In this document: positions 3,012-18,611 of the stretch, in pieces
How positions within the stretch are numbered: position 1 is the stretch's first letter
How the letters are laid out: every line of letters starts with the position of its first letter
Virus record (IMG/VR): IMGVR_UViG_3300022746_000050
Span: 1 to 24,339 of that record
Source of the DNA: a virus
DNA length: 24,339 nucleotides
Reading direction: 5' to 3' (one strand)
Notes under the pieces: generated by a model
The model's input: only the letters and a program-made list of their open reading frames with translations
Database searches by the model: none
What the model was told of the DNA's origin: nothing
Made by a program: the position numbers and the translations under genes

Positions 3012-4724
3012 ATGCCACGCTTATCTAAAATCGGTGCTGCTGCTGTAGGTGCTTTTGGTTGGGCTAATTCATCCGCAGCCACTTCCAATGTATCAGTTAC
3101 CTATCTTATGGTAGCTGGCGGTGGTGGTGGTGGTGGTGGCGAATCAACTAATGGTGCTGGTGGCGGAGGTGGTGGTGCTGGTGCTGGTGGTCTTTTGTAT
3201 GGCACAACAACTGCTAACCCAAGAACTTCTTATGTTGTTACGATTGGCGGTGGAGGTTCTGGCGGAGCAAGCAATGGTTCTGGCGCTGCTCCTGGATCTA
3301 ATGGATCAAACACTACAGTATTTTCTTTAACTGCTATAGGCGGTGGTGCTGGTGCTTCTGAAGGCGCTGGAGGTGCTGGAAATGGAGGTTCAGGAGGTGG
3401 CGCTGGTGGAGATGGAGGTGGCGCACAAGGAACGGGAACTTCTGGTCAAGGATACGATGGCGGAATAAATGCAAGCCGTTGCGGTGGTGGTGGTGGTGGA
3501 GCTAGTGCAGTAGGTGGACCTGGTATTTCTACTAGAGGTGGCGCTGGTGGAAATGGAAGCGCTTACTCTATAAGCGGAGCATCTGTAACTTACGCTGGTG
3601 GTGGCGGAGGTGGTGGTGGTAATAGTACTCAAGCTGGTGCTTCTGGTGGAGCAGGAGGTGGCGGCACAGGTGGCGCATCTCAAGGTGCTGGCGTATCTGG
3701 CGGAGGTATTGCTGGTGGTAATGGTACTGCTAATACTGGAGGTGGTGGTGGTGGTACTGGTGCGGGCAATAGCCCTAATGGTGGATCTGGAGGATCTGGT
3801 GTAGTTATTATTTCTTATGCAAGTCCTCAAAAATTTACTGGGGGAACTGTAACCACTTCTGGCGGAAATGTTATTCACACATTTACAAGCTCTAGCTATT
3901 TTGTTGGAAATTCTGCGCCATCTTATTCCGCAACATATTTAATTGTTGCTGGCGGAGGTTCTGGAGGTTCTAGAGTTGATCGTGGTGGCGGAGGTGGTGG
4001 CGCTGGAGGTTATGTTACTGGAACAACCAGTTTAATAGTTGGTTATAACTACACAATTACAGTAGGTGGAGGTGGAGCTTCATCTGGTTCTGGTTCAGCA
4101 GGAAGTTCTGGTACTGATTCTTCTATTCCAAATGCTTTAATACCGCTTACCACAGCAGTTGGTGGTGGCGCTGGAGGTTCAGGCGGTGGCGGTAATGGTG
4201 GTTCTGGCGGAGGTAGCGCAGGAGATGGATCTCCTAACGGAACGGGTACTGCTGGTCAAGGAACTAATGGCGGTACAGGTGGCGGTAATGGTAATGATTT
4301 TGGCGGAGGTGGTGGCGGTGGTAGCAATACTGGTGGTGCTGGAGGAACAAGCAGCGGAGGTGGTGTAGGCGGTGCTGGTACCTCTAATAGCATTACTGGA
4401 TCATCTGTTACATATTGTGGCGGTGGTGGCGGAGGTGGTGCATCAAATATTGGAAACTCTATTCCTGGAGGTGCTGGTGGTTCTGGCGGAGGTGGCGCAG
4501 GTGGCGCTAAAGGAACAAATCCTGGTGGTAACGGTACGGCTAATCTTGGCGCTGGTGGCGGTGGTTCAGATAACGCAACTAGTGGTGCTGGTGGTTCTGG
4601 CGTAGTTATTTTGTCTGTGCCTACTGCAAACTATACTGGAACGGTTACAGGAAGTCCTACTGTCACTACTAGCGGATCAAACACTATTATTAAATACACA
4701 AGTTCTGGAACTTATACAGCGTAA
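3012..4724 (+). CDS. Glycine-rich adhesin-like tail protein (two tandem Gly-rich domains)
   Basis: The 570-residue protein is dominated by Gly-Gly runs. Two homologous halves are visible. The first begins near residue 29 with VTYLMVAGGGGGGGG and closes near 262-297 with GVVIISYASPQKFTGG. The second begins near 305 with ATYLIVAGGGSGG and closes with GVVILSVPTANYTGT. Each half has the (Y)LxVAGGGGGG entrance and GVVIxS exit of the phage glycine-rich domain family. By analogy with the S16-type gp38 adhesin, such Gly-rich stretches can pack as polyglycine-II helices and carry receptor-binding loops. It lies among fibre genes, so a host-recognition role is likely but inferred. Strong codon repetition (GGT/GGC/GGA) makes this region prone to recombination and assembly error. 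Confidence 0.8.
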   Translation: MPRLSKIGAAAVGAFGWANSSAATSNVSVTYLMVAGGGGGGGGESTNGAGGGGGGAGAGGLLYGTTTANPRTSYVVTIGGGGSGGASNGSGAAPGSNGSNTTVFSLTAIGGGAGASEGAGGAGNGGSGGGAGGDGGGAQGTGTSGQGYDGGINASRCGGGGGGASAVGGPGISTRGGAGGNGSAYSISGASVTYAGGGGGGGGNSTQAGASGGAGGGGTGGASQGAGVSGGGIAGGNGTANTGGGGGGTGAGNSPNGGSGGSGVVIISYASPQKFTGGTVTTSGGNVIHTFTSSSYFVGNSAPSYSATYLIVAGGGSGGSRVDRGGGGGGAGGYVTGTTSLIVGYNYTITVGGGGASSGSGSAGSSGTDSSIPNALIPLTTAVGGGAGGSGGGGNGGSGGGSAGDGSPNGTGTAGQGTNGGTGGGNGNDFGGGGGGGSNTGGAGGTSSGGGVGGAGTSNSITGSSVTYCGGGGGGGASNIGNSIPGGAGGSGGGGAGGAKGTNPGGNGTANLGAGGGGSDNATSGAGGSGVVILSVPTANYTGTVTGSPTVTTSGSNTIIKYTSSGTYTA

Positions 4725-15696: not shown

Positions 15697-16791
15697 TCAT
15701 ACAAAGTTATCGGTGCTGGCATCTAACACCTGGTTAATAATGATGTTTTTGCGGTCATTAGAACATTCGTGCATACAGCGATGCTTAGCGTTAAATGACT
15801 GCATATATTCTTTTGTTTCCTGGCTAAACCACAGGTCCTTAAAACGCTTATCTTTAATTGATCCAATGCACCCTGTACTGTCAAAAGCCTTGTTATGGCA
15901 CGCATAGACCTTTTGATCCGCCCCAATTACAGGTACGGTCTGCATGATGTAGCATTGCTTGTAAGACCTGATATTGCTGTGTGAGCTACCTGGCTCGATG
16001 TTGTAAGTTGAATTGACGCTGAACTTGCTATCTACCAGATTTTGAATCTGAGCAAGCTGCGTGTTAACTTTCTCTGCGATTTTCGAATGGTAGTCATAAA
16101 AGTCAGGCGTGTACATAGGAGAAAAACGGACATTTTCAACGCCAGCAAATTTAAGTATTTCGGTAAATTCATAGAGGTTATCGCAGTTATTTTGATGAAC
16201 AATGTAGTTAACTGCTAAGTCGCAATCTTCATTCTTGATCTTAGCAAAGTTCTGTATGTTATTGATTACACTATTAAAACTCTTTTCAGGAACATTCCTA
16301 AAGCGTTTCATTTGAGCGCCATCGGTGTAGTCCATTGATACCCTGACCCACTTAGCTTTAGCCAACACCTCGGCACGATCTTTGACTAAGTTTTGCCCGT
16401 TAGTAATGATGGATAGATCAATGCCATAGTCCAGCGTGGCTTGCATGATTTTGACAATATCCTTGTGCATGAGAGGTTCGCCACCACCAGAGTAAGTCAC
16501 AGCCTTCACGCCCATGCTCCACAGGTCATCAAGGATCTCCATCATCTTCTCAGTAGAAATGACATCATTCTCATTCATATCTTCGTGCATCCCGCTGATG
16601 ATATGTTCTTCAGGACCACCATCCTTAACCCTAAATCCTGTGCTGTAAACGCAAAAGAAGCACCCGTGATTGCATAAATTGATTGGCTTGATGCGTACAT
16701 ATAGCGGTGCTGTGATCTCCCCCGCCACAAAAGAATTTAGCTTTTTTGGAAAGTTAAATATCTTGTAATCGCTGTATTTGTTTTGCCTCAT
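15697..16791 (-). CDS. Radical SAM protein with SPASM-like C-terminal cysteines
   Basis: The 364-residue protein has the radical SAM cluster motif CNHGCFFC at residues 40-47 (CX3CX2C), followed by VTYSGGGEPLMHKDI (SAM-binding GGE region) near residue 96 and a barrel-like middle. The C-terminal part carries further cysteines: KQCYIMQTVPVIGADQKVYAC, then GCIGSIKD, FKDLWF and CMHECSNDRK, which fits a SPASM or twitch domain binding auxiliary iron-sulphur clusters. Such enzymes modify peptides, sugars or other small substrates by radical chemistry. The substrate is unknown. The start overlaps the E1-beta-like stop by four bases, which ties it to the thiamine-diphosphate genes. Confidence 0.86.
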   Translation of the reverse strand: MRQNKYSDYKIFNFPKKLNSFVAGEITAPLYVRIKPINLCNHGCFFCVYSTGFRVKDGGPEEHIISGMHEDMNENDVISTEKMMEILDDLWSMGVKAVTYSGGGEPLMHKDIVKIMQATLDYGIDLSIITNGQNLVKDRAEVLAKAKWVRVSMDYTDGAQMKRFRNVPEKSFNSVINNIQNFAKIKNEDCDLAVNYIVHQNNCDNLYEFTEILKFAGVENVRFSPMYTPDFYDYHSKIAEKVNTQLAQIQNLVDSKFSVNSTYNIEPGSSHSNIRSYKQCYIMQTVPVIGADQKVYACHNKAFDSTGCIGSIKDKRFKDLWFSQETKEYMQSFNAKHRCMHECSNDRKNIIINQVLDASTDNFV

Positions 16792-17303
16792 ATTAAGTCC
16801 TTGTACTCCACTAAGATGGCTGATTCCTTACGGTTATCAATTAATTCGTACCCCTTGTTAACCATGCTTTCGGTTAAAAGCTGGTACACGGGAATATTAA
16901 TCATATCCCGCAAAGCGTTAGAGAAGTCCTGCGTATGAGTAGCCCCTGTGTACAAAGGCTTTTTCACATTACCAACTACGCAGCGAATGATGACAGCAGG
17001 ATCAAACTCGCCCTGGCTAATGTCTTTGATCTTATCTAAATGATTGACTAGCGCATCCATGCAATTCATTAAAAAGTCCATGCGTTCAATAAAAACAACT
17101 GGTCGCAAGCCTATTAAAGACAAACCAATAGCCATGCCCAACATCAAGTTCTCGGCTACTGGCATCTCAATAATCTGATTGTCTGGCACATTCTTGAGCG
17201 TTCCCATAGCACGCCCTTTTTGCAATCCATAACCAATAAACCGAACCTTAGGATCAGCAGCAAGGTAAGTGTTTCCCCTAATCAGAGCATCCTTATAGCT
17301 CAT
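16788..17303 (-). CDS. E1-beta / transketolase PYR-domain-like subunit (thiamine diphosphate), single domain
   Basis: The 171-residue protein matches the N-terminal pyrimidine-binding domain of E1-beta of pyruvate or branched-chain dehydrogenases. It shows FIGYGLQKGRAMG, EMPVAENLMLGMAIGLSLIG and LRPVVFIERMDFLMNCMDAL. Glu51 in VAEN corresponds to the catalytic Glu that activates the cofactor. Usual E1-beta is about 325 residues and has a C-terminal transketolase domain; that is absent. Paired with the PP-type protein at 17557-18171 it could make a minimal heteromeric enzyme, similar in size to the two-subunit sulfopyruvate decarboxylase. The substrate is unknown. Overlaps of four bases join it to both neighbours. 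Confidence 0.82.
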   Translation of the reverse strand: MSYKDALIRGNTYLAADPKVRFIGYGLQKGRAMGTLKNVPDNQIIEMPVAENLMLGMAIGLSLIGLRPVVFIERMDFLMNCMDALVNHLDKIKDISQGEFDPAVIIRCVVGNVKKPLYTGATHTQDFSNALRDMINIPVYQLLTESMVNKGYELIDNRKESAILVEYKDLI

Positions 17304-17560
17304 TCTTGTGCCTTTCTTAGTATTGCTTTAGCAAATGCAATGTAATTAAAAGGTTCAATTGGATGTTTTGGTTGAACCTGAGTTATTAAAAATGGTAACA
17401 GTACTTTCTGTATTTCCTCATCTGTTAGTGTCTTTGCTGGATGGGTGTAGAGTGGCTTTTCGTTTCTGTATTCATAATCAGGCAATCTTTGGTCAATAAC
17501 CCAAGTCCATCCTGTTATGTCATGTATTTGATACATCCACGCTACTGGTTCATTGTTCAT
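17300..17560 (-). CDS. Small PVAWMY-family protein between the two TPP subunits
   Basis: The 86-residue protein starts MNNEPVAWMYQIHDITGW and then has KPLYTHPAKTLTDEEIQKVL. The EPVAWMY...PLYTHP pattern occurs in many small bacterial and phage proteins of unknown function. The position is odd: it separates the E1-alpha-like and E1-beta-like genes, with four-base overlaps on each side. It may be an insertion of a mobile small gene or a partner of the enzyme. Nothing in the sequence points to a catalytic role. Confidence 0.65.
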   Translation of the reverse strand: MNNEPVAWMYQIHDITGWTWVIDQRLPDYEYRNEKPLYTHPAKTLTDEEIQKVLLPFLITQVQPKHPIEPFNYIAFAKAILRKAQE

Positions 17561-18171
17561 TTACGCTCCTTAAAGACAATATGTTTTTTAGTGCCGTTAC
17601 CAGCGTGAGGGTAGGTGGCTTTATATTTATTACGAATAACGCAAGAGGGCATTTCAAACTTAAATTTGTTTGGATTTCGCTCCTCAAAGCTCGTATCTAC
17701 TTGCCTGTCGTTATCTTCAATAATGAACATACACGGTAGGTCCTGACCTTCTACAAACATCACAGCTTCATAGAAATGCCCTTGCTCTTCAGCGCCATCA
17801 CCTAGGAAACAGTACACCCAGTTCTCGCTGCCTGATTCTTTGAGGGCGTAAGCCACGCCAGCAGCTATAGCGCAAGTGCCAGCAAGCACAGACGAAGTAA
17901 AAAAGTGACGGTTGCGGTCATAAACAAACATAGAATTGCCACCGAGAATATGTGCCAAAAGCTCATCTGCGGGTATTCCAGAAAGTAAAGCGTGATGATG
18001 ATTCCGATGAGTACTGAAAATCCAATCTCCATCTTTAATATCCTCCGTAAACAAATCAATTAAAAAGTCCTCGTTACCGCCTGATAAGTGAATCAGGTAG
18101 GGCAAATCCCCTGCCTCCCAATGCTCAGCTACCTTTTTCTCAAAATCAATTAATTCTTGTTTGCTTACCAT
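17557..18171 (-). CDS. E1-alpha-like thiamine-diphosphate PP-domain subunit, shortened
   Basis: The 204-residue protein follows the E1-alpha pattern: STHRNHHHALLSG (residues 53-65), a Gly-rich stretch with SSVLAGTCAIAAGVAYALK, then LGDGAEEQGHFYEAVMFV (GDG at 124-126) and LPCMFIIEDNDRQVDTS. GDG plus the downstream Asn (EDN, residues 152-154) is the metal-diphosphate binding motif; canonical E1-alpha has ENN. Usual E1-alpha is about 320-360 residues. Here the region after the cofactor motif is short, ending HIVFKERK. It should bind thiamine diphosphate together with the PYR subunit two genes downstream. No lipoyl-bearing E2 or E3 is nearby, so a dehydrogenase complex is unlikely unless it borrows host parts. 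Confidence 0.82.
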   Translation of the reverse strand: MVSKQELIDFEKKVAEHWEAGDLPYLIHLSGGNEDFLIDLFTEDIKDGDWIFSTHRNHHHALLSGIPADELLAHILGGNSMFVYDRNRHFFTSSVLAGTCAIAAGVAYALKESGSENWVYCFLGDGAEEQGHFYEAVMFVEGQDLPCMFIIEDNDRQVDTSFEERNPNKFKFEMPSCVIRNKYKATYPHAGNGTKKHIVFKERK

Positions 18172-18611
18172 GGTTCATCCAATTCAAATAAACGCCATTT
18201 ATCCGTTGGTACATCGTAGAAAAACTCACCTTGATTGACAGCCCTGTTTGGCACTTCAATGATGGGCGATGTAATGATCTCCATTACATTGATCCAATAC
18301 GCCCATTTCAGGTATTGATTGACTACGCACATATAGGTTGGTAAGTCGTTCAGAAAGAGTTTTTCCTTGCGTAATGGCACATGGATACTTGGATATGGGC
18401 AATAGTGCCAATGCTCACGCCACAAGCGCATCTCTACCTCGACATACGAATGAGGTATGAGGTCCTTGAAAGCCACTAGATCCACCTTGTATTTGTTTGG
18501 ATTAGGAATGGAATCGAGGCAATGCACTTGTTTTAGCCAACGCATTACGCTGCGCCTAGCAATCGGATCGCAAGCGTCATGGAGCTTCTGACTGAACGGC
18601 TTAGTAATCAT
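18165..18611 (-). CDS. Unknown protein, possible PD-(D/E)XK-like nuclease fold
   Basis: The 148-residue protein has YKVDLVAFKDL (Asp44) followed by YVEVEMRLWREHW (Glu58, Glu60) and then HVPLRKEKLF. The D-x13-E-V-E spacing followed by a strand with R/K resembles PD-(D/E)XK nucleases, but the diagnostic Lys of ExK is Met61-Arg62 here, so this is only a suggestion. Several Trp/His/Tyr residues are conserved-looking. It ends inside the E1-alpha-like gene (7-base overlap) and starts in an ATGA overlap with the gene before it. I do not recognise a named family. Confidence 0.55.
   Translation of the reverse strand: MITKPFSQKLHDACDPIARRSVMRWLKQVHCLDSIPNPNKYKVDLVAFKDLIPHSYVEVEMRLWREHWHYCPYPSIHVPLRKEKLFLNDLPTYMCVVNQYLKWAYWINVMEIITSPIIEVPNRAVNQGEFFYDVPTDKWRLFELDEPW

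Follow-up and report, generated by a model that had tools for sequence, protein, structure and literature searches.

The window analyzed here is a 24.3 kb stretch (24,339 nucleotides) of a lake phage, IMG/VR virus record IMGVR_UViG_3300022746_000050, the minus strand of which carries the genes of a strongly reduced thiamine diphosphate (ThDP) enzyme of the E1 family, designated mini-E1, with one alpha and one beta subunit. These two proteins very probably form a working minimal ThDP enzyme, as their sequences indicate, and a functional tie to one of two partners, a radical S-adenosylmethionine (radical-SAM) protein or a zinc alcohol dehydrogenase (Zn-ADH), can be assumed with similarly high confidence. 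Beyond what an earlier sequence-only reading of this DNA had noticed, the pair is part of a phage cassette that includes an obligate partner gene and, within one operon of overlapping genes, a glycosyltransferase-like gene. The partner enzymes suggest that mini-E1 helps to build an unusual sugar or a similar molecule and does not serve energy metabolism. Searches of the open-access literature listed no paper on a phage mini-E1 or on its pairing with a radical-SAM protein, and the new element is a phage module that uses ThDP chemistry of the E1 family and has two unrelated or distantly related fillers for each of its two slots, one for ThDP and one for oxidation.

Both subunits pass the curated cut-off of a Pfam family (alpha, E1_dh, 1e-19; beta, Transket_pyr, 6.3e-8), and in PHROG they fall on the same family, phrog_34187, which is 405 aa long, spans alpha and beta and has no function assigned (alpha at positions 10-198, E = 1.6e-70; beta at positions 237-402, E = 1.3e-49). 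The open reading frames (ORFs) for an alpha-like part of 204 aa and a beta-like part of 171 aa, as described in the sequence-only reading, are present on the minus strand. Alpha stops after the core of the ThDP/Mg-binding (PP) domain, is about 40% shorter than ordinary E1 alpha and shares about 30% identity with it or less. The beta profile covers residues 6-172 of the 329 residues of E1-beta, which corresponds to the PYR domain alone; the match stops there, as does the protein itself, so the transketolase C-terminal domain is absent, as had been proposed. Alignment with PDB chains of human and bacterial E1 places G124-D125-G126 and N154 of alpha on the GDG...N set of E1-alpha and H55-R56 on its YR, and E51 and H123 of beta on the conserved Glu of E1-beta and, in the QHSQ motif of human E1-beta, on its His, residues for which we presume the catalytic roles known from E1. 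The earlier suggestion that the GDG...EDN residues of the PP part and Glu51 of the PYR part are retained is thus borne out.

These residues are highly conserved among relatives. In alpha, G124, D125 and R56 are each found in 159/159 rows and G126 in 158/159, and N154 is kept in 143/159 with Asp in the other 16; in beta, E51 and H123 are invariant (153/153 rows each). Ratios of non-synonymous to synonymous substitution (dN/dS) against near relatives were 0.046-0.095 for alpha (4/4 pairs); for beta, two of four pairs gave values of 0.049 and 0.071, dS being saturated in the remaining two. Residue conservation and dN/dS below 0.1 together speak against both chance and decay, and a truncated pseudogene was ruled out on this basis. 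The short lengths are native: relatives recur in phages either as split pairs (median 205 aa for 107 distinct alpha and 172 aa for 100 distinct beta sequences) or as one chain of about 400 aa (55 distinct fused sequences, median 400 aa). Gene fission or an assembly artefact was also rejected, as a direct 4-base overlap of alpha and beta, or an insert between them, recurs in many contigs. At the site of the 86-aa ORF that separates the two genes in the window, relatives have no insert (many of them, with alpha and beta overlapping directly), a homologue of this ORF, or other inserts of 63-376 aa; the alpha/beta junction is a hot spot for small insertions in a two-subunit enzyme operon.

A structure was predicted with AlphaFold2 for the fused homologue L180 (from the contig of L054), a single chain modelled as a ligand-free monomer that stands in for the alpha-beta pair of the window, with a mean predicted local distance difference test (pLDDT) score of 93.1 and a predicted template modeling (pTM) score of 0.93. 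The PYR part matched residues 1-177 of E1-beta (Z 23.3, 169 aligned residues, 1.7-1.8 Å), and the two domains together matched human transketolase (Z 21.5, 351 aligned residues, 3.5 Å). Conserved residues, purifying selection, native length and this confident model support the proposal in the sequence-only reading of a working, stripped-down two-subunit enzyme.

Relatives were gathered from viral contigs, phage records and genome contigs, the viral-contig scans keeping the best 80 of 330 and the best 80 of 129 relatives. For a census of partners, alpha matches of 100 bits or less (ordinary E1, e.g., L004 and L062) and fragments shorter than 150 aa were left out, and the resulting 234 loci, many of which were repeat fetches of one contig, were reduced to 67 representatives by dereplication at 90% alpha identity. 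Exactly one partner was present in all 67, a radical-SAM protein in 35 and a Zn-ADH in 32. At least 3 kb of sequence on each side was available for 53 of the 67, and all of these had beta (25 of the radical-SAM and 28 of the ADH type); among the 14 without 3 kb on one side, ten had a radical-SAM gene and beta, three an ADH and beta, and one an ADH with beta unseen. Loci of the radical-SAM type are arranged either like the window (alpha-beta-radical-SAM together with a glycosyltransferase-like gene) or, in a second group of phages, as c7-beta-radical-SAM-alpha; the 735-kb megaphage LR756501 has beta-radical-SAM-alpha. In the Zn-ADH type, the ADH precedes an alpha-beta chain that is fused (cyanophages S-SM2 and P-TIM68 and other phages), often with a short-chain dehydrogenase/reductase (SDR). 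Cluster c7 (e.g., L093:5637-6395) is a 254-aa family directly upstream of the cassette in 13 of the 53 full-context representatives; its tentative assignment to GT9 was withdrawn, as there was no Pfam match, no PDB match and an hhalign probability of 0.3%.

In L053, L181 and L185 the order is beta-ADH-alpha, with an ADH in the radical-SAM position, as would be expected for one common oxidation; in the alpha tree these loci are nested among those of the radical-SAM type. On this tree, partner type has to change three times, and strongly supported branches by themselves force just one of the changes; repeated partner swapping is therefore likely but not proven. The fused form goes with ADH in 25/28 and the split form with radical-SAM in 25/25 representatives, and kinship accordingly accounts for part of the partner pattern.

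The association was also examined from the opposite side, with a profile scan for the radical-SAM protein alone (best 80 of 201 relatives). With matches counted above 60 bits, mini-E1 alpha or beta was found in 72 of these 80 loci, three were cut by a contig end and five had neither; a Zn-ADH was found in 0/80. In these five loci the mini-E1 slot holds another small ThDP pair, a protein of 211-213 aa with Transketolase_N as the best Pfam match (4.3e-12 and 1.5e-14) and one of 151-157 aa matching Transket_pyr (1.6e-22 and 1.9e-18); four of these loci (L293, L295, L296 and L298) are near-copies of each other, the fifth being the divergent L294, which lies on a contig of 230 kb. A minimal ThDP pair thus accompanies the radical-SAM gene in 77/77 loci open to judgement. 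A mini-transketolase with PP and PYR domains alone replaces mini-E1 in the same slot and is a second case of a phage ThDP enzyme pared down to these two domains. Since carboligation is common to both lineages, this exchange favors carboligation over plain decarboxylation.

The radical-SAM protein of the window matches Pfam Radical_SAM (1.6e-18) and SPASM (5.2e-5). Beyond the CX3CX2C motif it has exactly four further conserved cysteines (280, 298, 339 and 343), found in 21/21 representatives; the three cysteines of the SAM cluster are kept in 20/21, 20/21 and 21/21, the exception being L131, which lacks two of them as called. In that locus (L131:4294-5265) the first two motif cysteines are missing perhaps because of a wrong start, or the gene may be defective, with a second copy next to it. 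Sequence relation to characterized enzymes was seen at profile level (BtrN, 9.2e-12; DesII, 5e-9). The predicted model (pLDDT 88.0) matched DesII (Z 25.2, 335 aligned residues, 4.4 Å) and BtrN (Z 17.3, 224 aligned, 3.2 Å) as well as SkfB, BlsE, SuiB, MoaA and anSME (Z 24.7, 23.6, 21.9, 20.3 and 19.5, respectively). Twitch enzymes have one auxiliary cluster, which in BtrN is held by four cysteines, as would fit the window protein, and accompanies oxidation of an alcohol to a ketone, and which in MoaA has an open site and accompanies a redox-neutral reaction (PMC9012708, PMC6231123). DesII is described as a TDP-sugar enzyme that dehydrogenates TDP-D-quinovose (PMC11434129). BtrN oxidizes an aminocyclitol and DesII a sugar alcohol; the predicted fold of the window protein matches theirs, with a sequence relation at profile level alone. 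From the four-Cys site and the exclusion with Zn-ADH, we infer that the radical-SAM partner may carry out a BtrN-like oxidation of a secondary alcohol. Other aminoglycoside pathways presumably use Zn-ADHs (NeoA/GenE type) as their 2-deoxy-scyllo-inosamine dehydrogenases, and the literature assigns this dehydrogenase step to GenE.

Gene neighborhoods point to a substrate that is probably sugar-like. In the 28 full-context ADH representatives, an HldE-N-like kinase was present in 19, a c40-type SDR in 12 and epimerase-family genes in 16; further neighbors of this type match an HldE-C-like nucleotidyltransferase, a BcbF-like phosphatase and a GDP-fucose-synthase-like epimerase. L058 has a PseB-like 4,6-dehydratase and a GT9 protein. 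In the megaphage, two Methyltransf_14 proteins flank the set; we take their domain to be that of sugar C-methyltransferases. The glycosyltransferase-like protein of the window matches phrog_1574 (1.2e-48, no function given) and the glycosyltransferase family phrog_34859 (8.7e-7); its match to Pfam Anp1 (9e-5) is below the cut-off of that family, and a PDB sequence search gave no match. In L054 (6898-9856) and L053 (1965-7325), the ADH-type cassette lies within an apparent structural operon, next to capsid-like and connector-like genes, the L054 neighbors being by their position presumably capsid and head-tail genes; a virion target, or glycosylation of the virion, is therefore possible.

Several known systems resemble parts of this module. 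The S-SM2 and P-TIM68 proteins annotated as "transketolase central region-containing protein" (phrog_34187) are homologues, with 52-53% (alpha) and 46-51% (beta) identity in one fused chain; they stand with a Zn-ADH and a long lipopolysaccharide (LPS)-type sugar cluster, whereas the window has a radical-SAM and a glycosyltransferase-like gene. The S-SM2 cluster had been noted before as one of unknown use (PMC3037559). The E1 components of pyruvate and branched-chain 2-oxoacid dehydrogenases share sequence family (E1_dh, Transket_pyr) and active-site residues with mini-E1, which differs from them in having neither the transketolase C-terminal domain nor E2/E3. AviB1/AviB2, Pau11/Pau12 and Plm8/Plm9 are E1 alpha/beta-type pairs without E2/E3 that are assigned to the addition of pyruvate-derived two-carbon branches to keto-sugars, with sugar making and transfer genes and, in some cases, a ketoreductase as neighbors (PMC4425429, PMC4753412, PMC4802897). 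They come from Streptomyces antibiotic pathways and not from phages, and the passages cited report no obligate pairing with a radical-SAM protein or ADH.

Taken together, mini-E1 may be a minimal ThDP carboligase that works with an alcohol-oxidizing partner in a phage small-molecule, most likely sugar, module, a reading that we favor tentatively. The substrate would be a sugar or nucleotide sugar, from host or phage, on which the radical-SAM protein or, in other phages, the Zn-ADH would turn a secondary alcohol into a ketone. Mini-E1 would take a 2-oxo acid, for instance pyruvate, form from it an acyl-anion equivalent bound to ThDP and join this two-carbon unit to the carbonyl; such a carboligation would yield a sugar that is branched or extended. 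An SDR, in those phages that have one, would reduce the new keto group, and the glycosyltransferase-like protein would attach the resulting sugar to a glycan, either on the virion or on the host surface. The phage module contains what a reaction of this kind would call for: an alcohol-oxidizing partner, a ThDP enzyme, at times an SDR, and a transferase. It is further conceivable, with more reserve, that this represents an undescribed widespread phage module, with a ThDP slot (mini-E1 or an independently reduced mini-transketolase) and an oxidation slot (radical-SAM or Zn-ADH), that equips glycans of the virion or host surface with carbon-carbon-branched or extended sugars.

Several points weigh against carboligation on an oxidized sugar. 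Its substrate and reaction are ones that we infer, and the exchange of radical-SAM and ADH fits a common oxidation without proving it, as the ADH may act as a reductase. The closest fold match of the radical-SAM protein is not BtrN, and the matches include peptide (SkfB) and cofactor (MoaA) enzymes, so the fold leaves its substrate unfixed. The SDR is missing from 40/53 full-context representatives, and the reduction step is therefore not general. The glycosyltransferase assignment of the window gene is weak, and the window phage has no further sugar gene besides it. In addition, the AviB1/AviB2-type pairs are likened to mini-E1 by description and not by sequence, and they are of full length (Pau11 325 and Pau12 345 aa) compared with 204 and 171 aa.

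Among the alternatives, a chain-extending ketose synthase of transketolase or DXS type, which would add C2 to an aldose phosphate to give a long-chain or deoxy ketose and be followed by an HldE-like kinase, a phosphatase and a nucleotidyltransferase leading to a nucleotide sugar, is unlikely yet deserves consideration. It could draw on the HldE-N-like kinase that adjoins ADH-type mini-E1 in 19/28 full-context representatives, the HldE-C-like nucleotidyltransferase and BcbF-like phosphatase nearby, the annotated phosphoheptose isomerases of S-SM2, the replacement of mini-E1 by the mini-transketolase pair in five loci and the fit of the fused model to transketolase (351 residues, Z 21.5); however, mini-E1 belongs by sequence to the E1 lineage, the known members of which take 2-oxo acids, the heptose-type genes are a general component of LPS clusters in phages and are absent around the radical-SAM type, and the radical-SAM or ADH partner would be left without an obvious step. 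A plain 2-oxo acid decarboxylase that works in the manner of sulfopyruvate or phosphonopyruvate decarboxylase and passes its aldehyde to the ADH for reduction appears improbable. Sulfopyruvate decarboxylase (ComD/ComE) has two small subunits of one domain each, and this likeness in size, which the sequence-only reading had pointed out, holds, as does the presence of a Zn-ADH neighbor in 32/67 representatives; the family kinship does not, because ComD/ComE belong to the TPP_enzyme_N/C families and mini-E1 to the E1 lineage. Alpha scored 14.9 bits (E = 0.024) against the TPP_enzyme_C cut-off of 21.9 compared with 71.1 bits (1e-19) for E1_dh, and beta had no match to Pfam TPP_enzyme_N, so the sulfopyruvate decarboxylase family was rejected. 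Moreover, the radical-SAM partner of the other 35 representatives is unsuited to aldehyde reduction, replacement by a transketolase lineage would be unexpected, and no phosphoenolpyruvate (PEP)-mutase-like gene was noticed among the neighbors read.

Two further explanations would connect mini-E1 to host 2-oxo acid oxidation, and both are very improbable. A reduced E1 that still feeds a host E2 during infection, the least credible of all, would agree with the best curated matches, which are pyruvate dehydrogenase (PDH) E1 models for alpha and beta; these scores are far under the model cut-offs (95.5 vs 393.85 bits and 47.2 vs 321 bits, respectively). The C-terminal domain of E1-beta, which beta lacks, binds E2, and PDB entry 1w85 is, per its title, a complex of E1 with the E2 binding domain. 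E2 (PF00198) and lipoyl (PF00364) domains were found in 0/12 related phage records, most of which are perhaps incomplete, leaving a host E2 possible, and control searches for PF00364 and PF00198 gave matches in 14 and 10 of 14 genomes; for E2 and lipoyl domains, the earlier observation that no E2/E3 is near thus extends to related phages. Function outside any 2-oxoacid dehydrogenase complex is the best reading of mini-E1. An interfering or decoy E1, the subunits of which would combine with E1 halves of the host or tie up ThDP and thereby stop host pyruvate oxidation, is hardly more credible: truncated copies of host-like subunits in a virus, as host-takeover proteins, are conceivable, but the active-site residues are conserved in 153-159 rows, the partner genes are obligate and fused single-chain forms exist.

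The genes of the window row and their motifs are listed in the table below; the 148-aa ORF, alpha, the 86-aa ORF, beta, the radical-SAM gene and the glycosyltransferase-like gene form an overlapping series. The 148-aa protein has a relative in L009 (70%) and is perhaps co-translated with alpha; its membership in the cassette is left as a candidate. Elsewhere, the window contains RecE-like and RecT-like recombination genes, tail and structural genes, and genes that we take, from their sequences, to be RusA-like, SSB-like and endolysin-like. Window 3012-4724 encodes a protein of 570 aa that is very rich in glycine, contains repeats and shows marked GC skew; it is tail-fibre-like by position.

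Table. Coordinates of the minus-strand gene row of the window and of the mini-transketolase pairs (window positions unless a locus is given)
Feature	Position	Strand	Remarks
148-aa protein	18165-18611	-	no family match; directly upstream of alpha, overlapping it by 7 bases
Mini-E1 alpha, PP (ThDP/Mg-binding) domain, 204 aa	17557-18171	-	Pfam E1_dh, phrog_34187; 4-base overlap with 86-aa ORF
Alpha GDG	17794-17802	-	
Alpha Asn154 codon	17710-17712	-	
86-aa ORF between alpha and beta	17300-17560	-	no family above its cut-off; 4-base overlap with beta
Mini-E1 beta, PYR domain, 171 aa	16788-17303	-	Pfam Transket_pyr, phrog_34187
Beta Glu51 codon	17151-17153	-	
Radical-SAM/Twitch protein, 364 aa	15697-16791	-	overlaps beta by 4 bases
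Radical-SAM CX3CX2C (C40, C44, C47)	16651-16674		
Auxiliary-cluster Cys 280, 298, 339, 343	15763-15954		
Glycosyltransferase-like protein, 257 aa	14949-15722	-	DSD motif; overlaps radical-SAM gene
Mini-transketolase pair	L293:3200-4293; L294:3879-4984		beside same radical-SAM family

The mini-E1 module occurs repeatedly, in phages of fresh water as well as in cyanophages and huge phages. At least 11 loci were found on genome contigs, of which five belong to the mini-E1 family and six are like ordinary ThDP enzymes, and plasmid matches were all below 60% identity, the five matches listed standing at 28-34% to ordinary E1 alpha. L060 (Desulfobacterales) represents genuine chromosomal DNA: matches to aspartate carbamoyltransferase, signal peptidase I, LptC and LptB pass their cut-offs, and two further radical-SAM genes are present; in its phylum, 1/395 genomes matched, namely that of the query itself. 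On the cellular or cellular-looking contigs L057, L060 and L061 from metagenome-assembled genomes, two to three radical-SAM genes of differing kinds and glycosyltransferases surround mini-E1.

Few enzymes of the E1/transketolase group would be smaller than mini-E1. The third domain would have been lost in two lineages that are interchangeable in one gene slot, which makes the purpose of the C-terminal domain directly testable. These findings also provide a testable function for phrog_34187 and for its recurring phage module, and the mutual exclusion of radical-SAM and Zn-ADH partners offers a natural experiment on alternative oxidations of one alcohol. If branched sugars are indeed the products, phages would bring carbon-carbon bond chemistry to surface glycans, which would be relevant to receptor change, superinfection exclusion and virion decoration.

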